Source of the DNA: a virus
DNA: 23,280 nt
Virus record (IMG/VR): IMGVR_UViG_3300005327_000020
Span: 1 to 23,280 of that record
Strand: one strand, 5' to 3'
Part shown: positions 8,727 through 23,280 of the stretch, piece after piece
Layout of the letters: each line of letters starts with the position of its first letter
How positions within the stretch are numbered: position 1 is the first letter of the stretch
Translations under genes and position numbers: made by a program
Notes under the pieces: model-generated
Database searches by the model: none
Seen by the model: only the letters and a program-made list of their open reading frames with translations
Told to the model about the DNA's origin: nothing

Positions 8727-9434
8727 ATGCGCGTAGCTGTGTTGTCGGCGGCGGTTGCCGGGCTTTGGGTTCAGCCGGCGAGCGCGGCCGCAATCATTCT
8801 TCCGGCAACTTATGTACAGTACGATACCCCCCTAGCGGACCAGGGCTTCACCTACTTCGATTCATCGCTTGGCACGCTGGAGAGCGTCCAGCTTCAGGTG
8901 ACGCCCAACTTCACGCGGGAATTTCAGGCCATTTATCCAGGCCATTTGGATACCGCTTCTGTCGCGTGGGACACGAGCAGCGCGCCAAATTGCGCGGTGT
9001 GCGCGGGACTTACCGCGAAGGGCGAAGCCGACTTAACGCTGGCTTATTCAGACGCCCTCATGGGCTCTTACGACTATTTCCAGGTTAATTTCACGGGGCC
9101 AGCAGAAGCATACAAGTTCAACCCACTAGCGTTCGTAAACCCGCCATTCCCAGAATACCGCAAATATCTAACTAGCTCTGGCCCAGGGCTTTATGACGAG
9201 AGTCTGGACGGCCTGTTTCGGACTACGAACGGTGGCACTATCAGGAATGCTTCGCCCGTTCTATGCACAAGCTACCGCAGCTGCGATTTTTCGCTCTATC
9301 AACTCACTTACACCTACGCTCCAGGCGGCGTGCCGGAGCCATCGACGTGGGCGCTGATGCTCATTGCCTTTGGAGCAATGGGAATGGCAATGCGTCGGCG
9401 GAAGCAAAGGCTCGCACTCGCTTACATGCCGTGA
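8727..9434 (+). CDS. Exported PEPxxWA-CTERM protein, opposite-strand moron
   Basis: This is the only plus-strand gene in the window. It encodes 235 residues. A signal peptide ends near ASAAA (residues 17-21). The C-terminus carries a complete sorting tag: PEPSTWA at 203-209, a hydrophobic segment LMLIAFGAMGMAM, then RRRKQR and a short tail. PEP-CTERM tags are recognised by exosortases, which cut and process proteins at the cell surface, often with exopolysaccharide production (family knowledge). The middle is beta-rich with two CxxC-like pairs (NCAVCAG and LCTSYRSC) and no enzyme motif. The start has an AGGGGGG site. Its composition is visibly more AT-rich than its neighbours, suggesting separate acquisition. 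Its promoter should lie in or before the 77-bp divergent gap, which holds a TGACGTCA palindrome (8702-8709). Its end overlaps the convergent gene by 13 bp. Confidence 0.92.
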   Translation: MRVAVLSAAVAGLWVQPASAAAIILPATYVQYDTPLADQGFTYFDSSLGTLESVQLQVTPNFTREFQAIYPGHLDTASVAWDTSSAPNCAVCAGLTAKGEADLTLAYSDALMGSYDYFQVNFTGPAEAYKFNPLAFVNPPFPEYRKYLTSSGPGLYDESLDGLFRTTNGGTIRNASPVLCTSYRSCDFSLYQLTYTYAPGGVPEPSTWALMLIAFGAMGMAMRRRKQRLALAYMP

Positions 9435-10984
9435 GGATGTCCTATCGTCACATTCGTTTGCGCCATCCCAGGCACCGACATGTACTGCCCCAGCGGGTTG
9501 CCCGGCGATGCATTGTAGCACGCGAGGATCGACGCACACCCACCTGAGTACTTGGTTTCGGGCGATGGGCCATACACGAGGTTATGATACCGATCGACTT
9601 GCGAGCTGTCGCACTCCGCTGGCCCATTGGTCGGCGCCACCCCGCGCACGGTAATCCCGAGGCACTCGCGCTCCATTTGCTCGAACACGTTGGGGCCTCG
9701 CCATCCGAAGGTGTAGTCGGCATGGAGCGTTGCCCCATTGCAGAAGTTCGCGCTTATCTTGCGGCACGGATCGAGCGAGCAGCTATCGCCATGCGTTACG
9801 GGATCGTTGGTACAGCCACTGGTCACGGTCATCGCCGGGTCCATGCGGTCGCTCGATAGATACATGCTGCCGTAGTCAGCGAAGCCGAGGACGTTGTAGA
9901 TGTTCTTGATCGTGAGCTGGGGCACTCGCGAGTAGTCGCTTCCTCCGGCAGTTTTGGGGCATTTTTCGTGGCCCGGCACCTGGTCCGCAGGGAGATAGGC
10001 GGCGTACCAAAAGTGCCCGCGCCCGTCGGGCGAGGTAAGATTATACGTGTCCCAGCACTGCGGGGCCTTGAGGTTGGCAACCATCTGCGCTGGGACAGCT
10101 TGTGTGCCCGTGCAATTGCCGCCCCAAGGATCGTTCCCGTCCTCGTCCTTGAGGAACCGGGAATACCCTGTCACTCCGTTGAAGCGGTCCTTGGTGATCG
10201 CGACCGTGGCAGTGCTGCCGTCCGCGATGATGCAGTAGTACCCGGCAAACCCGGCCGGGGTGGTGGTTGTGCCGGGATAGACAAGCGAAGCCGCGCTATA
10301 GATTGCGCGCCTAGCCTCGTCGTTGAAGTCCTTCGGATTGCCGCCCAGGATGAATTTCATCCCCCGCCGTAGATACGTGTCGATATTGGCTTGGTCCTGG
10401 GTGCCCTCGATGTAATAGAAAGCCTGGCTTTGCGGCCGAACCCCAACAATCGCCCCATTGGACAATTGCCGTTCCATGATCGGCTCCATGTAGTTCGTCG
10501 CATTCAGCGGGCCGCCCGTGCAAGTCGAGTCCGGGTCTGTTCTTAGCGTCGTGTAGGTGCTGTTTTCGTCCCAGTTCACCGCGCCGGAACCCAGGTGGTA
10601 GTGCCCGAACTTCGCCACGCCGAAGCCGAGGATGTTGTCCTTCTGCTTGACGGTGGACACCTGGCAGGTGATGCGGATTTTCTTCTCGAATGACGCCTCT
10701 GAACCAGCAGCCGCCTTGACGTATTTGTTGAGTACCCGTGTGTCTCCGGTGTGAAGCACTTCCAGCATATCGCCCGTTGAAAGCAGCCAATCGCTTTCCG
10801 TGACATCGGCGGGCAGGGCAACTTCGGCCGGTTCGTAAGTATCTGCCGGAGCGTTTTGGGTGGGATATAACGGATAGGATGAATAACCGTGGAGCCAATC
10901 GACGCCCTGATTACCCACGGTCCACGATTGCGCCGCAGCCGGAGAGGCAATGAGCGCCAGTAAGGCGACAAGCAATAGTTTCAT
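9422..10984 (-). CDS. Exported DUF1996-like protein
   Basis: From ATG 10984 this encodes 520 residues with a Sec signal peptide, MKLLLVALLALIASPAAAQ. A GTG at 10996 that overlaps the previous stop as GTGA is an alternative start adding four residues. Counting from that GTG, the mature protein shows a divergent version of the DUF1996 pattern: a His pair (KFGHYHLG, 129-136), NSTYTTLR (145-152), TCTGGPLNATNYMEP (158-172), FYYI, CWDTYNLTSPDGRGH (314-328), CP (346-347) and RVPQLTI (357-363). Many cysteines suggest disulfides outside the cytoplasm. DUF1996 is an uncharacterised secreted family best known in fungi and some bacteria. Lying beside fibre-like genes, it could instead be a virion surface protein. 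Assignment is from recalled motif order only. Confidence 0.72.
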   Translation of the reverse strand: MKLLLVALLALIASPAAAQSWTVGNQGVDWLHGYSSYPLYPTQNAPADTYEPAEVALPADVTESDWLLSTGDMLEVLHTGDTRVLNKYVKAAAGSEASFEKKIRITCQVSTVKQKDNILGFGVAKFGHYHLGSGAVNWDENSTYTTLRTDPDSTCTGGPLNATNYMEPIMERQLSNGAIVGVRPQSQAFYYIEGTQDQANIDTYLRRGMKFILGGNPKDFNDEARRAIYSAASLVYPGTTTTPAGFAGYYCIIADGSTATVAITKDRFNGVTGYSRFLKDEDGNDPWGGNCTGTQAVPAQMVANLKAPQCWDTYNLTSPDGRGHFWYAAYLPADQVPGHEKCPKTAGGSDYSRVPQLTIKNIYNVLGFADYGSMYLSSDRMDPAMTVTSGCTNDPVTHGDSCSLDPCRKISANFCNGATLHADYTFGWRGPNVFEQMERECLGITVRGVAPTNGPAECDSSQVDRYHNLVYGPSPETKYSGGCASILACYNASPGNPLGQYMSVPGMAQTNVTIGHPHGM

Positions 10985-10992
10985 TGCATTTC

Positions 10993-12066
10993 TCACGGTT
11001 GGAAGGCCACGACGGCGCGGCCGTTGCTATAACTGTTATTCGGTGTGGCATTGATCGAGATCGCCCCGGTGGTGGCGCTCGATGCGAGGATGAACATTTC
11101 CTCGCTGTTGAAGAATATCTGATCGATGACAGTCGTGCCGGAGTTAGCGGTAGCCGTGATCGAGTTCCCCAACACGAAGGCGCCGAGCAGCAAGCCGCTC
11201 GGCGGGCAGGTAAGCGACGCCGTAGCGTGCGGATTGCCTTCGCTCGTCCCTGTCGTAAAGGTCGGGCCACTGGTCGGCGTGCTGTTGCCTTTCAGCGAGC
11301 CGAAGAACAGCACGTTGGAACGCGCGGCGGCCGGGCGGGTGCCGGTCACGTCGTAGTTGCCCGCAGCTATGTCCGTTGCGCTGGCATAGATCGCAAACGC
11401 TCGGCCCACCTGTTGCCCACCTGAGCCCAGTTTCGTCAAAGTAACAGCCGAGCCGCCGCCTGTGGGCGTCAGGGTCAGACTGGTTGGGGCCGAATCGACT
11501 GTCCCGCCAGCATTGGAGAAGCAGGTCAGCCACACAACGGCTTTGCCTGCCGTGAAGGGTCGCGTCGTGAAACTCACTGCCGTTGAACTCGATGCCGAAG
11601 TGGCCTTGCCACCGTGCGTATATGTCGCGGGCGCGGCCTGCGCGTTCAGTGTATCGCTCCAGGTGTTCGATGCCGCCGAAATTACTTGTGTGCCAAGGCC
11701 GATATCGCGGCCCAGTTCCTCGTAAACCTCAAACAACCCGCCGGCGCTCAAATTGGCCTCACCGAGCAACGGCCATTCGATGCCCGTCACTTCGGCACCA
11801 AGGTTGAGCGGTACCCAATCCTCAGTTGCCCATGCGCCTGTGCCGCCTATCCGCCAGAGGGCGCGTGCCTGATCGCCAGTGCCGTCATCCGGGTTGTAAT
11901 CGATGTATGACGGGTAGGTCGTGGTCCACGTCGGCGGGTTGTCGCCAGTGGTCCATCCATCCGCATTGGCGAGGACAGGGGCGGTCGGAGCCGCAGCCGC
12001 GAGGGCGCCGCCGCTGTGGATCAGCCGCGTGCCGCGGCCGAAGAACCGGCCCGAAAATCGGCGCAT
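10993..12066 (-). CDS. Probable phage surface or fibre/decoration protein
   Basis: ATG 12066 gives 357 residues; a TTG three bases upstream is also possible. The ribosome site is weak, and the start overlaps the stop of a 14-codon ORF as TGATG, so initiation may be coupled. The N-terminus is basic (RRFSGRFFGRG). An Ig/fibronectin-like segment follows, with WTTTYPSYIDYNPDDG and ARALWRIGG. The second half is a Thr/Ser/Gly-rich beta domain (TGGGSAVTLTKLGSGGQQ) ending SNGRAVVAFQP. Such composition is usual for virion appendages that bind surfaces. No known receptor-binding family is recognisable. The stop overlaps the next gene's possible GTG start. Confidence 0.75.
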   Translation of the reverse strand: MRRFSGRFFGRGTRLIHSGGALAAAAPTAPVLANADGWTTGDNPPTWTTTYPSYIDYNPDDGTGDQARALWRIGGTGAWATEDWVPLNLGAEVTGIEWPLLGEANLSAGGLFEVYEELGRDIGLGTQVISAASNTWSDTLNAQAAPATYTHGGKATSASSSTAVSFTTRPFTAGKAVVWLTCFSNAGGTVDSAPTSLTLTPTGGGSAVTLTKLGSGGQQVGRAFAIYASATDIAAGNYDVTGTRPAAARSNVLFFGSLKGNSTPTSGPTFTTGTSEGNPHATASLTCPPSGLLLGAFVLGNSITATANSGTTVIDQIFFNSEEMFILASSATTGAISINATPNNSYSNGRAVVAFQP

Positions 12067-16542: not shown

Positions 16543-17870
16543 CCCAGCCCTCCTACCGTCGCGCGAGGGGCCGGATTCACGGCCTCGCTCAGTGGAATGT
16601 CTTGCATTTGCACAGTGATCACGTCGCCACCCGGCACCGGCGGAAGATTTTCGAGCGCGCGGCACTCATTGCGGGTCATCACGCCGATGTTCGTCATCGT
16701 TTGGTAGAAGAGGGCTCGGCCTTGGCTGTCGCCGCGCAGCAACCCCTCTAGGTTGAACTCGAGCGTGATTCTCTGCGCCCGGTCGGCGGGTCTCAGCAGC
16801 TGCTTTTGCAGGGCCTGCTCGATGCGCTTGAGGCGCCGGCGAAGTGTGAATTTCTGGAAGCCGAGAACGTCGACTTCCTTGCCGGTGCCCCAGTTGCTGG
16901 ATTTGTCGCCGAAGCCCACCATGGGCGGCGGCACGCCGAAAATGCGGCAGATTTCCTCGCCGCTGAACTTGCGGCTCTCGAGCATCTGGGCATCTTCGGG
17001 AGTGATATTGATCTGCTGCCATTTCATGCCGCGATCGAGCAGCATGGGGCGTCCGCTGTTGACCGAGCCCTGGTAGTTTTCCTGCAGATAGCCGTTGAAC
17101 TCCGTGCGCTGTTCCGGCGTGAGCTTTATGCTCGGATCGGTCGACAGCACGCCGCTGGGACGCATCCCGTTGTGGAACGTCTGGCTCGCCGCACCTTCTG
17201 CAGCCATCGCGCCGTAAAACGCACTGCGACACGCGGCCAGGGTGGAAACACCGCCCATCGCATTACCCATCGGTCCGCGAATGTGCAGGACATCCGATAC
17301 GTCCTTGAGCGCCCGGTCGGTGCCTTGGGGCCATTCGTACTGGAGAAAGCCGTTGTCCTGACGGCGGACGACGACCAGATCGGGCCGAATCGGGGTCAGC
17401 GAGTAGACTGTTCCGTCACTGCGCCGGTCAATCGAAGCGTAAGCGTTGCCCTGCAACTCTAGCGCTGCTGCCATGAACTCCCAGAAGTCCAGGGCCGTCT
17501 GATCATAGTTCGGGCTGTCATGCAGCACGAAGTAGAGCGGGTGATCGGCGGCAACAGTCCGTACGCCATTCGCGGCGGTGCGATACACCATCAGCGGTAG
17601 GCTGGCGATCGTGCCGGCGATCAGGTTAACGCAGGCCCAGGTGGCCGACAGCCCGAGCGGGTTCGTTGCGGCGAGCCGGTCCTGCCATTGCGCGAGCGTG
17701 ACCTGATTGGTGCGGAAGTTCTCGCCGTCTTGGCGGCTTGCTCCACCCCAGCCAGCTCCCCAGCCGAGGCCCGTGGAGGTCCACGCATCCAGGGCGTCGG
17801 GACCGAGTAGCTGCTTTTCCTCGATGTCGGCGCCGGGGCGCTTGCCCAAGAGGGCCTGCCACCACTTCAC
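16539..17870 (-). CDS. Portal protein (HK97 family)
   Basis: Translation starts at GTG 17870, overlapping the terminase stop as GTGA, giving 443 residues. The sequence includes ATWACVNLIAGTIASLPLMV, HPLYFVLHDSPNYDQTALDF, ALELQGNAYASIDRRSDG, FSGEEICRIFGVPPPMVGFG and GLLRGDSQGRALFYQTMTN, all standard HK97-type portal motifs. It forms the dodecameric ring at the capsid vertex through which DNA is packaged. The ribosome site is weak, so coupling to terminase translation is likely. Confidence 0.97.
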   Translation of the reverse strand: MKWWQALLGKRPGADIEEKQLLGPDALDAWTSTGLGWGAGWGGASRQDGENFRTNQVTLAQWQDRLAATNPLGLSATWACVNLIAGTIASLPLMVYRTAANGVRTVAADHPLYFVLHDSPNYDQTALDFWEFMAAALELQGNAYASIDRRSDGTVYSLTPIRPDLVVVRRQDNGFLQYEWPQGTDRALKDVSDVLHIRGPMGNAMGGVSTLAACRSAFYGAMAAEGAASQTFHNGMRPSGVLSTDPSIKLTPEQRTEFNGYLQENYQGSVNSGRPMLLDRGMKWQQINITPEDAQMLESRKFSGEEICRIFGVPPPMVGFGDKSSNWGTGKEVDVLGFQKFTLRRRLKRIEQALQKQLLRPADRAQRITLEFNLEGLLRGDSQGRALFYQTMTNIGVMTRNECRALENLPPVPGGDVITVQMQDIPLSEAVNPAPRATVGGLG

Positions 17871-19678
17871 GCCGCGTAACTCGCAATCCAGTCGTCCACG
17901 CTGTCATCTTCAGCGGGCAAGAGCATGGGAGCAGTCGCGTTGATCATGGCGTCTACTCCGTCGATCTTGTTCGGACTGTTCGGCGTCTCCTTCTTGGGAA
18001 GGATGCTGCCATCAACGCGGCGGTCGACCACCGCATTGCCAATCATCCAGGTGAGCACCGGGTTGCCGTCGTGGCGGAGCCGCGAAGGCCCGGCCTTGAC
18101 CCGGGCTTCCAGCGCTTTGGCCGGGTCGGTGACGTTCCGAGCGTTCTTGGCCATCTGGACCGCGAAGGGCTCGCCGCCGTCGTCGAACTCCTCGTTGAGG
18201 CGAGAAGCCATGGCGAGGCCGCTGTTCCACTGATCGAACGTGGCCTTGCGAACCGCGAGAGCCGCTTTCAGATCGCGGATCAGCACCTCGATGACGCGGT
18301 GGTCGATGAAATCGCCTTCGGTCGCGGTCAGCGCACCTTGTGCGACCCACTGCTTGTATAGATCCGTGATCTGCTTGAGCGAGTTGTCCTGGTTGGCCAG
18401 CCGGGCCTGCGGCACGAAGAACCACGGTTTCACCAGCAACTGGCCGTCGTCCTTCTCTGCGGCAAGCACGATTGCCGACAGATCATCGACGTTCGAAAGG
18501 TCGGCGCCGAGGTAGCAATCCAGTCCCGCGAAATCGTCCAGAGTCAGCGACGTGTCGGCGCAAAGCTGCCACTGCGTGACGTTCAGCCAGGCCGATGCGG
18601 CACCGAGCCAGATATTCAGGTGCTTCGTCTTGAACTCGCCCTCTGCGGCCGGGCTCGCGCGCGCCTCAATCGCCCTCTTGGCCACTTCGTCCCGAAGCGG
18701 CTTGGAGGCCTCAAGCAACGGGTTGGCCTTAATCCACTTGGCGGCGTCGTAAGGATCGTCGCCGACCTTCCGGTCATCGGCGTAGTCATCCGCTCGATCG
18801 AGCGTGAAGATGATCGCGAAGATATGCTCGGCTATCACCGATCGCTCGAGCACTTTGACGGCGAGGGTGCGCTGCTCGTAGCAGACACCGTGCAGGTTAA
18901 ACCCGGCCGTCGTGATGATCCACATCAGCGGATTGCGCCGCGCACCGAAGGCCGAATTCATGACGTCGAACAGCCCGCGGTCGGTGTGCGCGTGCAACTC
19001 GTCCATGGTCACCAGGTGCGGGTTATGCCCATCCTGGCTTTTCGCCTTGGCGTGCATCGGCTGCATGTACCCGCCGTTGTCGGCGCAGGTGATCGACTTC
19101 GACCACGGCGAAAGCCCAAACGCCTCTTGCAGCTCGGGCATCTTCTCGACCATCCGCTTGGCCGGGTGGAACACCTTCTTGGCCTGGTCGAACGTCGTAG
19201 CGGCCGTCAAAACCTGCGGGCCCGGCTCATTCTCGCACGTCAGGCAATAGAGCGAGACGATCGCGGTCTTCGTCGACTTGGCGTTCTTGCGAGCCTCTTC
19301 CTCGTAGACCGAGGTGAAGCGCCGGCCGCCTGTTTCGTGTCGGCGCCAGCCGAACACCATGGCGAGAATGAAAATCTGGAACGGTTCCAGCGTGATCGTC
19401 GCCGTGTCCCAGACACCTTCGACGTGCGGTAGCTTTTCGGCAAAGTCGCAGATGTCGTTCGCGTGCCAGGGATCGAAGTAGTAACCCCAGCTCTTGTCCT
19501 TGGCGCGCCTCAGGTCATCCAGATGGCGCTGGCAGGCGAGGCGAACCCACTTACAGTGCCGGCGCTGCTTCTTGTCGGCAGCTCCGCGCTTGGCATACGC
19601 CAGCGCGACCGCCGCATAGTCCTTAGCGTGCCCGGTGTCCGTTGCGGTTGAACGGGTTCGCCTGTTTGCTCGGGTCAT
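17867..19678 (-). CDS. terL: Terminase large subunit
   Basis: This 603-residue ATPase-nuclease drives DNA packaging through the portal. The ATPase domain has the variant Walker A ARKNAKSTKTA (129-139), usual for this terminase group, and Walker B LVTMDE (222-227), followed by the coupling motif IITTAGF. The nuclease domain begins with YLGADLSNVDDLSA (389-402), providing Asp residues for metal binding, and ends with the conserved KIDGVDAMINA near the C-terminus. ATG 19678 has AAGGTGA four bases upstream. The start lies inside the small subunit gene, a 56-bp overlap. Confidence 0.97.
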   Translation of the reverse strand: MTRANRRTRSTATDTGHAKDYAAVALAYAKRGAADKKQRRHCKWVRLACQRHLDDLRRAKDKSWGYYFDPWHANDICDFAEKLPHVEGVWDTATITLEPFQIFILAMVFGWRRHETGGRRFTSVYEEEARKNAKSTKTAIVSLYCLTCENEPGPQVLTAATTFDQAKKVFHPAKRMVEKMPELQEAFGLSPWSKSITCADNGGYMQPMHAKAKSQDGHNPHLVTMDELHAHTDRGLFDVMNSAFGARRNPLMWIITTAGFNLHGVCYEQRTLAVKVLERSVIAEHIFAIIFTLDRADDYADDRKVGDDPYDAAKWIKANPLLEASKPLRDEVAKRAIEARASPAAEGEFKTKHLNIWLGAASAWLNVTQWQLCADTSLTLDDFAGLDCYLGADLSNVDDLSAIVLAAEKDDGQLLVKPWFFVPQARLANQDNSLKQITDLYKQWVAQGALTATEGDFIDHRVIEVLIRDLKAALAVRKATFDQWNSGLAMASRLNEEFDDGGEPFAVQMAKNARNVTDPAKALEARVKAGPSRLRHDGNPVLTWMIGNAVVDRRVDGSILPKKETPNSPNKIDGVDAMINATAPMLLPAEDDSVDDWIASYAA

Positions 19679-20036
19679 CCGTCACCTTGCCGACACGGCT
19701 CTTGCGGCCAGCGATGCCCAGCAGCTCACCCATGCGTCGCGCCTCAGTTAGATAAGCCGCCGGTGGCGGCGCGCCGGCCTCGAAAGCCTTGCGGATCAGC
19801 GCCTCGATCGAGCAGTAGCGCGCAAACAGCGAGCTATCGATTTCGACCACGCCGGTGGACATCACCCGGCCAATTTCCTCCTGCCAAACATCGATCGCGC
19901 CGGGCGTTAGGTAGTCGGGTTGAGCCGGGGGCGAACCCGGCACGATGATTTCCTGCCTGCTAGCATCGCGGCACGGCTGGAGAGTACCGCGAGCGACCTT
20001 TTCCGAAGGCGGCTCAGCCTTCCGTCCTCGCTGCAT
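19623..20036 (-). CDS. terS: Terminase small subunit (P27 family)
   Basis: The 137-residue protein starts at ATG 20036 behind AGGAGC. It matches the P27-type small terminase: a basic disordered N-terminus, then LTPGAIDVWQEEIGRVMSTG, a central helical region DSSLFARYCSIEALIRKAFE, and ARRMGELLGIAGRKSRVGKV near the end. It recognises phage DNA and starts packaging with TerL. The 56-bp overlap with terL suggests coupled synthesis. The preceding 118 bp have no gene but contain palindromes that could be part of its recognition site. Confidence 0.92.
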   Translation of the reverse strand: MQRGRKAEPPSEKVARGTLQPCRDASRQEIIVPGSPPAQPDYLTPGAIDVWQEEIGRVMSTGVVEIDSSLFARYCSIEALIRKAFEAGAPPPAAYLTEARRMGELLGIAGRKSRVGKVTDDPSKQANPFNRNGHRAR

Positions 20037-20154
20037 TTCAACTGCTCCTGAATTTCAAAGCTGGCAAAGCGCCAAATCGCACGTGCGAAAAAAGGCCCCC
20101 GGAGCCGGTCCCATGGGTAGGGGCCGCAGACTTTCGAACCTCCCCCCATGACGT
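20037..20154. other. Non-coding interval between HNH and terS with hairpin, T-tract and palindrome (possible cos or terminator)
   Basis: On the minus strand GGCCCC (20125-20120) can pair with GGGGCC (20099-20094) across a 20-base loop that itself contains the palindrome CCCATGGG. Six Ts follow (20093-20088), as in an intrinsic terminator. Immediately after lies a perfect 12-bp palindrome, TCGCACGTGCGA (20077-20088). A G-rich run, GGGGGGAGG, lies just after the HNH stop. In phages with P27 terminase and an adjacent HNH nuclease, the cos site usually maps to this interval. I cannot tell a cos site from a terminator here. Confidence 0.4.
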
Positions 20155-20499
20155 TCATCGTGGCGGGCTGATTGCTGAACGATTTCGCAGTCGGCCTCTC
20201 GCACTCTCGCGCGCCGTCTTGGCGACGTCGCAGGGCTTGCAGAGGCCTTGGTAGTTCTCCCGGTCGTCGGTGCCGCCTTCGGCCTTCGGAGTGATGTGGT
20301 CGGCGATCGCGCTGGGCGAGTACTGCGGTGGGTCCATTGCCAGGCAGGCTCGGCAGAGCGGCTCTTCGCGGAGCACCCGCTCACGCATTCGTTCGTGGGC
20401 GCGGCCGTATCCACGTGCCTGGCGGCTCTCGCGCCGGTTCCAGTTAGATGCTGGCTTGCCTTTCGGCTTCGCTTTCAGGTGTGGAGGACGGCTGGGCAT
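20155..20499 (-). CDS. HNH endonuclease, packaging-associated
   Basis: The 114-residue protein starts at ATG 20499 with GGAGGCG. The HNH core has a zinc pair CRAC (Cys 49 and 52), the catalytic ADHITPKAEGG (His 68), ENYQGLC (Asn 82) and a second pair CKPC (Cys 87 and 90). After the second pair most relatives have His before xxKT; here it is Asp 91 in CDVAKT, a possible single-base change from CAC to GAC. HNH proteins beside terminase genes help TerL cut at cos in several phages. The zinc site and first two catalytic residues are intact, so activity is possible but uncertain. Confidence 0.9.
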   Translation of the reverse strand: MPSRPPHLKAKPKGKPASNWNRRESRQARGYGRAHERMRERVLREEPLCRACLAMDPPQYSPSAIADHITPKAEGGTDDRENYQGLCKPCDVAKTARESARGRLRNRSAISPPR

Positions 20500-20708: not shown

Positions 20709-20807
20709 CTAGGCTTTCTCATGCTCGGGCTGCTCGGGCAGCGGATCTGATCCGGCTTGCCCGTTCAGATTGAGAACCCTTTTAATGAACCTCGCCCGCT
20801 GGGTCAA
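20709..20807 (-). CDS. Possible 32-residue small protein overlapping the NusG-like gene's end
   Basis: A TTG at 20807 starts a 32-codon frame with a basic N-terminus (MTQRARFIKRVLNLNG) and an acidic end (PLPEQPEHEKA). It overlaps the last 26 bases of the NusG-like gene in another frame. The composition looks protein-like, but there is no clear ribosome site, so confidence is low. If real, it would be translated by coupling to the NusG-like gene. Confidence 0.25.
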   Translation of the reverse strand: MTQRARFIKRVLNLNGQAGSDPLPEQPEHEKA

Positions 20808-21405
20808 CTACCGGAATGAGAACCCACGGGAAAAAATCGAAGGCTTGGGTCGACCCGGGGAACAGCACCTTGGCGAACTTGCCCCGCATCTCCTGCACCG
20901 TGCCGGTGAGCCCAGCGAACGCGCCCTCGATCAGCTTCACCTGATCGCCGGCACTGAACACCCGTGGCTTGCCCCGCGGCTTCCGCCGGCTGGCTATCCG
21001 GCGCAGCGGCGCCAACTGATCATCGGTCACCAGCGGGATGTCGTCACCGGCATGGAAGAGCCTGAAGAACGGATGGCCTCGCACCACCATTCTGCGCTGC
21101 TCCGTGTCCCACACCCTGTAGAGTTGGGCAGGCGACCGCGACAGCGCCAGCAGTTCCGCCAGCCGATCGGCACGGGCGAACACGAATGACGGGAGCAGGG
21201 GCCGTGTCACCAGCGCCGGGAGCTTGCGAGGGCGGCTGGGCCGTTCATCCGGCCCACGTTTGGGAGGGGCAGGCTTGATGCTCTCCACAGGGGTCCAGAC
21301 TTCGAATCCGGCATCGGCCAGGGAGATGGCAAGCTGCAGGGTACGGCTGGGCAACGTCCTCAGGATGCACCAACTTCCACTCATCGGTTTCTCGCCACCG
21401 CTCAT
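20782..21405 (-). CDS. NusG/RfaH-like transcription antitermination protein
   Basis: ATG 21405, behind GGAGGCAAGG, gives 207 residues; an ATG seven codons later is possible. The frame is open much further upstream but that part is repeat-rich leader. The N-terminus has the NGN pattern: SWCILRTLPSRTLQLAISLA, FEVWTPVE (34-41) and LPSFVFARADR (71-81). The C-terminus has a KOW domain, FSAGDQVKLIEGAFAGLTG then TVQEMRGKFAKVLFPG (150-184). A basic Pro-rich insert lies in the NGN domain (residues 44-62), and a second basic stretch (RRIASRRKPRGKPR) joins NGN to KOW. NusG proteins bind RNA polymerase and change pausing and termination. A phage paralogue at the head of a late unit containing terminators suggests processive antitermination (inference). 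Confidence 0.88.
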   Translation of the reverse strand: MSGGEKPMSGSWCILRTLPSRTLQLAISLADAGFEVWTPVESIKPAPPKRGPDERPSRPRKLPALVTRPLLPSFVFARADRLAELLALSRSPAQLYRVWDTEQRRMVVRGHPFFRLFHAGDDIPLVTDDQLAPLRRIASRRKPRGKPRVFSAGDQVKLIEGAFAGLTGTVQEMRGKFAKVLFPGSTQAFDFFPWVLIPVVDPAGEVH

Positions 21406-21450
21406 CGCACAAACCTTGCCTCCGACCCCGAATGCCGGGTTGACAGGCGT

Positions 21451-21487
21451 CGGAACCCCCGACGGCCCCAAGGGCCTAGGGGTTCCG
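21451..21487 (-). promoter_or_regulatory. Strong two-tier hairpin in the NusG-like gene's leader
   Basis: A perfect 9-bp outer stem (CGGAACCCC at 21451-21459 with GGGGTTCCG at 21479-21487) encloses a 5-bp inner stem (GGCCC 21464-21468 with GGGCC 21472-21476) and a 3-base loop. Its right edge in transcription order is about 45 bases before the start codon. No T-tract follows, so it is not a standard intrinsic terminator; a pause or RNA recognition element is possible. Confidence 0.6.
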
Positions 21488-21545
21488 GCCTCCCCGCCAG
21501 CCCCGCGAACCGGGCACCAAACCACCCACTGAAATCGATGAAACC

Positions 21546-21596
21546 AGCCCGATCGAACCCGGGCTGCCGAACTGTCGCAGCATTTCGTGCGACAGT
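21546..21596 (-). repeat. Inverted repeats in the NusG-like leader
   Basis: Two adjacent stem-loops. ACTGTCGCA (21571-21579) is repeated inverted at 21588-21596 around an 8-base loop, a perfect 9-bp stem. Next to it AGCCCG (21546-21551) pairs with CGGGCT (21560-21565), also with an 8-base loop. The 9-mer of the first stem is the same motif as the nearby tandem repeats. Confidence 0.7.
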
Positions 21597-21647
21597 GCCG
21601 CGACACTTTGCTGTAACCCGCAGAAATCTGCCATTCCTGTCTGACGG

Positions 21648-21674
21648 TGCGACAGTTGCGACAGTTGCGACAGC
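21648..21674 (-). repeat. Three tandem 9-bp repeats, TGCGACAGT type
   Basis: Plus-strand reading gives TGCGACAGT, TGCGACAGT and TGCGACAGC back to back with no spacer. On the transcribed sense they read ACTGTCGCA-like units, and they start three bases after the stop of the 165-residue gene. With the inverted pair at 21571-21596 this makes five copies within about 105 bp. The tandem copies, one arm of the pair and the shared motif suggest a protein- or RNA-recognition site. Confidence 0.85.
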
Positions 21675-21676
21675 GG

Positions 21677-22174
21677 TCACCATTCGACCCTCCGGATCCT
21701 GCCGCGACGCAGGCTATTCCAGATGAGGTCACCGCCGCTGCGATCGAACGGCACCGAGGCGCCGGGGCTCTGCCGATAGAAGACGTGCGCTGCGTGGCGG
21801 CCGTTCGATATGACGATGCGGTTGGGGTCGATGCTGACCACCGGCCGGCCGTCCAGCAGGGCCACCACGCCGCTCTGATCGAGGCGGCGATGGTGCAGCT
21901 CGGCCGGCGCGCCGTATAGGTCTTTCAGGCTCCAACCGCAGCCGAGCGCCAGGTCCAGCCACTGGTCGGCGAAGTTACGCAGATCCCGCAGTAGCGTGAA
22001 CCAGCGCTCATCGGTGAGCCCATATGGCTTCTGCCCTTGCTCAAGCTCATCGAGCTCCCGCCGAACCCGGGCAAGGTGATCGCTGGGCACGGCCGCCGCG
22101 GCAGTGTCTGTCTGGCTGGCCTCAGGGTCGGTCCAGCCGGCCACGTCCGCTTGAAAGCGTTCGAACGTGCTCAC
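21677..22174 (-). CDS. Hypothetical protein next to the DUF3987 gene
   Basis: GTG 22174 overlaps the preceding stop as GTGA and gives 165 residues. The N-terminal half is acidic with a helical segment (LARVRRELDELEQGQ) and RWFTLLRDLRNFADQWLDLA. The second half contains GWSLKDLYGAP, DQSGVVALLDGRPVVSIDPN and a short basic end, SLRRGRIRRVEW. I associate the second half with uncharacterised alphaproteobacterial prophage proteins that follow primase-like genes, but cannot give a function. Coupling with DUF3987 suggests a joint role near replication. Confidence 0.75.
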   Translation of the reverse strand: MSTFERFQADVAGWTDPEASQTDTAAAAVPSDHLARVRRELDELEQGQKPYGLTDERWFTLLRDLRNFADQWLDLALGCGWSLKDLYGAPAELHHRRLDQSGVVALLDGRPVVSIDPNRIVISNGRHAAHVFYRQSPGASVPFDRSGGDLIWNSLRRGRIRRVEW

Positions 22175-23280
22175 GGCCGTTCGTCCGGGTAGATGACGGT
22201 GAAAGCGACCCGTTCCTTGATTTCCTGACCGCGCGCTTCGAAGGTTGCCCCGCCCGCGATGGGCACCAGGTGGCCGTGGAAAATCAGCAGATCAATCGCG
22301 CGCTGTAGCACCTCGGCAGGGCGGAGGTGGTTCGGCGTAGCAAAGCGGCTCAGCCAGCGCTTGCCCACGGTCTCCAGCTTCTCTCCCCGGATGAAGTCGA
22401 TGAGCGCGTTCGCGTTGTCAGAGTCCTCGCTAACTGTGCCCGCGTTGAATAGGCGCAGGGCCTCAGCGAGGTAGAACTCGCCCAAGGCAATCCCGACGGA
22501 CATCGCGGCTGGGCTGATGCCCGCCGTGGCGGTCATCTCGCCTGCCTCGAAATACGATACCACAGCGGCCAGCCGGAGCGCGTGCTGGGCCATCTTGGCC
22601 GCGAGGTCGCTCACGGGCGACAGCGACCCTTTCTCGCCCTGTTGGGTCTCGAGGTGGTCGCTGAAGCGAATCCACATTTGGCGCGCTTCCGGCTGAAGTT
22701 GCGCGGTGCTGAACTCCAGCTCGCGTGTCTCGGGGTGCATGCGGCTGAACGCCTGCCGCAGAAGGTTCGAAAGGCGGGACTTGTACTTCTCCAGATCGTC
22801 CCACGATTCCTGCGATGGCTCTTTCCACAGGCGTTGACCGCGGAGGCTCTTGGGCGCTGCCACCAGCATGCGGCTGAGCATGCCCTGATCGCGGAGCGCC
22901 TTGTTGCCGAACAGCTTGGATGCCACACCCGCCTGAACCATCAAGTGGAGCGACATTCGGCGCCCGTCGAGTATCTTGGTGACGTCGGTTCCGCGCACCC
23001 GCTTAATCGGCTTGCCGTCCCACAGCTGGGACAGGGCCGCGCCGGTCGACGCCTGCCGGTCCTCCTGCATGGAGTATCCGCCGAGCATCTTGGCGCCTTC
23101 GTCTGAGAACAGCCCGATGGAAGGGTAGGCTTCGTCGAGCAGCTTCACGATGCCTTCGACCGTCGGCTCTTCGACCAGCAGCATCGGCAGCGCGGGTGCA
23201 ATTGGCGGCTGGCCGCAGTCCTCCAACTCGCGCTTGATTTGTGACTTATCCTTCTTGCCGCGCTTCGCCGCGGCGACGGC
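22171..23280 (-). CDS. DUF3987 (YfjI-like) replication-associated protein, N-terminus missing
   Basis: The frame is open to the right edge, so only the C-terminal 369 residues are visible. Recognisable features are EGIVKLLDEAYPSIGLFSDE, AKMLGGYSM, LSQLWDGKPIKRVRG, RRMSLHLMVQAGVASKLFGN and MLSRMLVAAPKSLRGQR, which match the DUF3987 proteins often fused or linked to phage and plasmid primase-polymerases. The C-terminus has LIDFIRGEKLETVGKRWLSR and a small winged-helix-like end. A role in phage DNA replication is probable. Any primase or helicase domain would lie upstream, outside the window. Confidence 0.85.
   Translation of the reverse strand, partial: AVAAAKRGKKDKSQIKRELEDCGQPPIAPALPMLLVEEPTVEGIVKLLDEAYPSIGLFSDEGAKMLGGYSMQEDRQASTGAALSQLWDGKPIKRVRGTDVTKILDGRRMSLHLMVQAGVASKLFGNKALRDQGMLSRMLVAAPKSLRGQRLWKEPSQESWDDLEKYKSRLSNLLRQAFSRMHPETRELEFSTAQLQPEARQMWIRFSDHLETQQGEKGSLSPVSDLAAKMAQHALRLAAVVSYFEAGEMTATAGISPAAMSVGIALGEFYLAEALRLFNAGTVSEDSDNANALIDFIRGEKLETVGKRWLSRFATPNHLRPAEVLQRAIDLLIFHGHLVPIAGGATFEARGQEIKERVAFTVIYPDERP

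Follow-up and report, generated by a model that had tools for sequence, protein, structure and literature searches.

What does a NusG-like protein do at the point where a phage genome passes from replication to packaging, and do the repeats that lie ahead of its gene serve it? The locus that raises these questions lies in a virus record of 23,280 bases, which we analysed whole (the window). On the minus strand, the genes run from the end of a DUF3987 / phage DNA helicase (22171-23280, cut by the window end; PF13148, 7.1e-61; phrog_2373, 5.6e-59) through a gene for a 165-aa protein (21677-22174), a 271-nt gap and a gene for a 207-aa protein (20782-21405) to the packaging module, with an HNH endonuclease identified by profile matches (20155-20499), the terminase small subunit (terS, 19623-20036; phrog_83), the terminase large subunit (terL, 17867-19678; PF20441 and PF03354) and the portal. 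Protease and major capsid genes follow, and the strand continues onward to a 1632-aa gene of tape-measure size. The 165-aa protein, the product of a partner gene of the helicase that is found at the same place in three relatives (loci L042, L046 and L050), had no family match in profile searches. A first-pass annotation of this DNA had put the 207-aa ORF at the passage from replication to packaging, and the gene order agrees, with the ORF running from 21405 to 20782 between the DUF3987 helicase and HNH-terS-terL.

The 207-aa product is a genuine specialised NusG paralogue of the NusG/Spt5 superfamily. It matched phrog_6386 in PHROGs v4 with an E value of 2.6e-22, and all 30 aligned members of its own family also matched; the name of phrog_6386, 'transcription antiterminator', is an annotation, and we found no tested member in the open-access literature searched. 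Scored as a single sequence, the protein fell under the Pfam cut-offs for NusG and KOW. In an AlphaFold2 model built from ten homologues (mean pLDDT 84.8), the NGN domain (residues 9-140; 20986-21381, minus strand) aligned to RfaH (8pen_P) with a Z score of 9.1 and an rmsd of 2.6 over 99 residues. The KOW domain (residues 149-200; 20806-20961, minus strand), which is predicted to form a beta barrel and has beta strands in the model, aligned to the Spt5 KOW domain (4ytl_A; Z 9.7, rmsd 1.0 over 51 residues). Foldseek gave an E value of 6.7e-7 to an RpoB-NusG model, and the top viral structural match was a phage protein named RfaH. Whole-chain TM-scores were low and whole-chain rmsd was large, which we read as a different placement of the domains in the model; matches to ribosomal proteins, NdhS and PHF1, unrelated KOW/Tudor barrels, were set aside as common small-barrel matches. 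The first-pass annotation had called an NGN-plus-KOW protein and proposed structure prediction as a check, and the PHROG profile and the predicted structure bear the call out. In the NCBIfam ranking UpxY came top and RfaH, NusG and LoaP lower, and every score was under its cut-off (UpxY NF033644, 34.4 bits against 100; RfaH TIGR01955, 16.0 against 144.5; LoaP NF033641, 16.8 against 125), so we did not file the protein under any of these four names. The UpxY model, the best curated match, was found with E values up to 0.001 in 27 of the 30 family members.

The Sphingomonas melonis genome, in which a prophage copy exists alongside a normal NusG, allows this family to be set against a housekeeping protein. 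The host NusG scored approximately 27 bits in the family profile, compared with 228 bits for the prophage copy of the same genome and 195-235 bits for the best prophage copies, and on these scores the family is clearly separate from this host NusG. Alignment of the homologues places F76 (codon 21178-21180, minus strand) at the position of RfaH F56, a leucine in NusG and the residue behind the tight binding of RfaH to RNA polymerase (Wang et al., PMC7593976). Phenylalanine occupies this position in all 69 distinct homologues, and the S. melonis NusG, the sole host NusG examined, has L65. In the loop through which NusG contacts Rho (I164, F165 and G166 in E. coli), the isoleucine was lost in most homologues, the phenylalanine was kept in 68 of 69 and the glycine in 47. 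Judged by these residues, the Rho-contact loop of the KOW domain appears only partly lost, which counts against an anti-termination reading.

An alignment search found a homologue in 71 viral loci. Fourteen of them lie in named genomes, all of the sphingomonads Sphingomonas, Novosphingobium or Rhizorhabdus. Among sampled genomes, 9 of 299 from the family of one of these hosts carried the gene, that host included, and a single genome of 385 from the whole class did so, this being the query genome itself; tblastn searches of 50,697 GenBank phages and 72,556 PLSDB plasmids returned no homologue of the NusG paralogue. The gene is placed at the early/late junction. In every one of the 43 loci with a recognisable terL, the NusG stop was followed, at a distance of 882-3985 nt, by terL in the same orientation. 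In 28 of these 43, TerL was less than 35% identical to that of the window, so the NusG gene stays where it is as the packaging genes behind it are swapped. No other result speaks as strongly for a part in late transcription, although the argument is purely positional. Several close TerL relatives do not have the NusG gene, which counts against a late-operon reading, and no common replacement protein was obvious in the relatives without it.

On balance, we favour a role for the gene product as a putative late-operon antiterminator or anti-Rho elongation factor of the phage, a specialised NusG paralogue; we hold this with somewhat better than even confidence. Antitermination, displacement of NusG and the late operon as the target are what we infer from the fold, the phenylalanine and the position, which were computed here along with the family and the host group. 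The paralogue would be expressed from the last part of the early/replication transcript, and its NGN domain would then bind the clamp of the host RNA polymerase and displace host NusG. By suppressing pauses and Rho-dependent termination, and perhaps intrinsic termination too, it would keep the polymerase moving along the long operon for packaging, head and tail, and its KOW domain may couple a ribosome. There is published precedent for a specialised NusG that resides in the very operon on which it acts (PMC7593976, PMC7819879).

A k-mer search for a shared loading motif, allowing one mismatch and covering 500 nt upstream and 700 nt downstream of the gene in 53 homologues, found no k-mer above control regions. 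At the level of sequence comparison there thus appears to be no shared cis-element, which counts against a targeted late antiterminator and would suit a site-less general anti-silencing factor, one that would compete with host NusG on all transcribing polymerases during infection and relieve NusG/Rho silencing across the phage genome. The predicted beta-barrel KOW domain, with no sign of RfaH-like autoinhibition, is consistent with such a factor, as are the conserved clamp-binding phenylalanine and the partial loss of the Rho-loop residues, and the place before terS would then reflect only the time of expression. However, a gene for general anti-silencing would be expected early, and the strict same-strand place ahead of an exchanged terminase points instead to the late operon; we consider general anti-silencing unlikely, if still the main rival. 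Separately, a 50-nt leader just upstream of the NusG gene is common to loci L076, L078, L079, L081, L097 and L137 (GAACAAAGcGTGATTCgGGtGCGGGTT..GGAGTATTGGGGTGGTTGAG), and its GAACAAA..GTGATTC part is also present in L083. It is possible that this leader is a cis-element of one sublineage; these relatives are too close to judge.

We also considered that this KOW protein could be degenerate or moonlighting and play no part in late transcription. The single-sequence scores under the Pfam cut-offs and the absence of the gene from some close relatives would agree with this, but the ORFs are intact, the NGN residues are invariant and synteny is kept across proteins that are only 31-49% identical, and we regard such decay or change of function as improbable.

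The first-pass annotation had further proposed that a leader with five copies of a 9-mer, together with hairpins, forms the loading and antitermination site of the NusG paralogue. The copies themselves are there. On the strand of the gene (minus), ACTGTCGCA is found at 21666-21674 with one mismatch and exactly at 21657-21665, 21648-21656 and 21588-21596, and a further exact copy lies on the opposite (plus) strand at 21571-21579. The five copies fall within 104 bp (21571-21674), 166-269 nt upstream of the NusG gene, and CTGTCGCA occurs 6 times in the window compared with 1.4 expected, a count that zero shuffles reached. Structure in the leader RNA is moderate (z -2.5, with 5 of 200 shuffles as stable), and an Rfam search of the window gave zero matches. 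Closeness to the gene, an excess above chance and a structured leader would all fit a loading site. However, these features are shared with phages that do not have the paralogue. The same kind of array directly follows the gene for the 165-aa protein both in relatives that have NusG and the helicase (L042, L046 and L050) and in relatives that have the helicase and no NusG (L114, L115 and L122), and the strong hairpin of the leader (21452-21486, minus strand) has a counterpart in helicase-bearing relatives with and without NusG, that of the NusG-less L115 being nearly identical to that of L050. More distant helicase phages, with or without NusG, carry a related array built of another unit (ACTTTAGCA, ACTATCGCA or AATCGCA); the NusG-less helicase phages L124 and L126 are among those with related arrays. 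Conversely, the 1.2 kb upstream of the gene in 64 loci that have NusG and no helicase held at most one match each to the CTNTMRCA repeat motif.

Counting gave the same picture. In a motif-free count of local repeats, copies per 300 nt were more numerous following helicase genes than ahead of NusG where the helicase is missing (p 7e-7), and remained higher when the loci with helicase and without NusG were compared alone with the helicase-less NusG upstream regions (p 8e-4). A first repeat count with plain shuffles was too noisy for use. For the helicase, an alignment scan succeeded where a single-sequence scan gave zero, and in one broad alignment conservation was nowhere high enough to scan with a DNA pattern. 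The comparison of leaders that had been proposed went the other way from the claim and gave an outcome that the first-pass annotation had named as a refutation. Most homologues lack the repeats in their leaders, and most have no leader in the first place, 56 of 70 starting at most 54 nt from the previous ORF or overlapping it. The distribution among loci with and without the helicase and with and without NusG thus rules out the repeats as the loading site of the paralogue, and we give the proposal next to no weight. Of the original antiterminator reading, the NusG paralogue and a position that fits a late-operon regulator stand; the notion of a protein paired with its own repeat site falls with the repeats.

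To which gene, then, do the repeats belong? The five copies belong to the replication module; their linkage is with a replication gene and not with NusG. We think it probable that they are putative iterons, a replication origin in the leader that would be recognised by the module of the DUF3987 helicase and the 165-aa protein. This reading follows from the linkage to the helicase, the repetition on both strands and the AT-rich tracts beside the repeats in two relatives (L053 and L049). Related but differing repeats (ACTGTCGCA, ACTTTAGCA, ACTATCGCA, ACTGTAGCA and AATCGCA forms) lie next to the helicase on both strands whether or not NusG is present, and the higher copy numbers after helicases point the same way. 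Against an origin, part of the array is read in frame within a putative small ORF of 93 aa (21402-21683, minus strand) as TVA-TVA, so that repetition at the protein level could add to the count; loci L114, L120 and L129 are weak by the motif-free count; and some phages with NusG and no helicase have unrelated repeat clusters, one of which, in L065, lies within approximately 300 nt of the gene. The repeat clusters of helicase-less phages are mostly further upstream and are probably other origins. The start of the small ORF overlaps the array, a counterpart is found in the same place in the NusG-less L115 (6550-6900), and the ORF had no PHROG match. We also observed that 9-bp repeats of related but variable sequence (approximately AACTNTNGCA), putative replication origins, occur beside DUF3987 helicases in the window (21452-21674) and in L042, L046, L050, L053, L049 and L112-L131.

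Intrinsic terminators in the late unit had been offered as further support for antitermination, two of them as clear and a third as a candidate before terS. One is clear, located by terminator scans upstream of the 1632-aa gene (5049-5034, minus strand). The other, a hairpin after the major capsid gene (14489-14464, minus strand), has a strong stem and a weak T tract (TTTCTCG) and was left uncalled by two scans. We rejected the hairpin before terS as a terminator. It is part of a conserved cos-like packaging element between HNH and terS (20071-20147, minus strand; GGGGGG..GAAAGTC..GGACCG..CTTTTTTCGCxCGTGCG), which most of 22 relatives have kept, whether or not they carry NusG. A cos site is the likeliest reading of this element because of its position and the HNH gene next to it, as HNH stimulates cos cleavage in HK97 (PMC9410871). 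Across the late regions of 66 loci with NusG (383 kb), we counted 16 strong terminators in sense and 42 in antisense orientation, compared with 5 and 12, respectively, in relatives without NusG. Strong sense-strand terminators were no commoner in late regions with NusG than in those without it, and they were rarer than antisense ones. These counts suggest that the late operons are not full of intrinsic terminators; the enrichment that would support antitermination was not found, and terminators make a weak argument for it. Should the protein be an antiterminator, it would more likely act on Rho-dependent termination and pausing.

The early/late junction, where the phage NusG paralogue lies, is also the place of lambda Q. 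Capsule, conjugation and antibiotic operons are known to employ specialised NusGs. To our knowledge, Q, AlpA and GafZ are not NusG-fold proteins. Loading takes place at a promoter element for Q and AlpA, and probably for GafZ, which serves an alphaproteobacterial phage-like cluster (PMC11150451). With RfaH of E. coli and other specialised NusGs, the phage protein shares the NGN and KOW fold, the phenylalanine at the F56 position and the separation from housekeeping NusG. It differs from RfaH in scoring under the cut-off, in the predicted beta barrel of its KOW domain, which in RfaH is an autoinhibited alpha-hairpin, in that the search around the gene in 53 homologues gave no ops-like element and in being resident in the operon that it probably serves. 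UpxY of Bacteroides is likewise encoded within the operon on which it acts (PMC7819879); it belongs to different hosts and has a conserved 5' leader that is absent here. Prophage genes like rfaH receive only a passing mention (PMC7593976), and the open-access literature that we searched yielded no NusG paralogue of a phage whose role in late genes had been tested. A phage family with a NusG paralogue at the early/late junction would add a fold to N- and Q-type late antitermination and would give a testable model in Alphaproteobacteria, where little is known of late phage gene control. We suggest, tentatively and with somewhat less than even confidence, that in a large group of tailed phages restricted to sphingomonads a resident NusG paralogue replaces the Q-type late switch and has been kept while packaging modules were exchanged, with a loading signal invisible to sequence comparison. 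The correction to the repeats matters in its own right, as they resemble the origin from which phages with a DUF3987 helicase would replicate.

Two further genes of the window lie within the late operon or among its tail genes. On the opposite (plus) strand, inside the operon, 8727-9434 encodes a 235-aa PEPxxWA-CTERM, choice-of-anchor E-like protein that exceeds the cut-off of NF035944 (38.5 bits), a predicted exosortase-type surface protein in a phage. Adjoining it on the minus strand (9422-10996) is the gene for a 524-aa protein with a DUF1996 domain (8.2e-15), which is unusual among tail genes.
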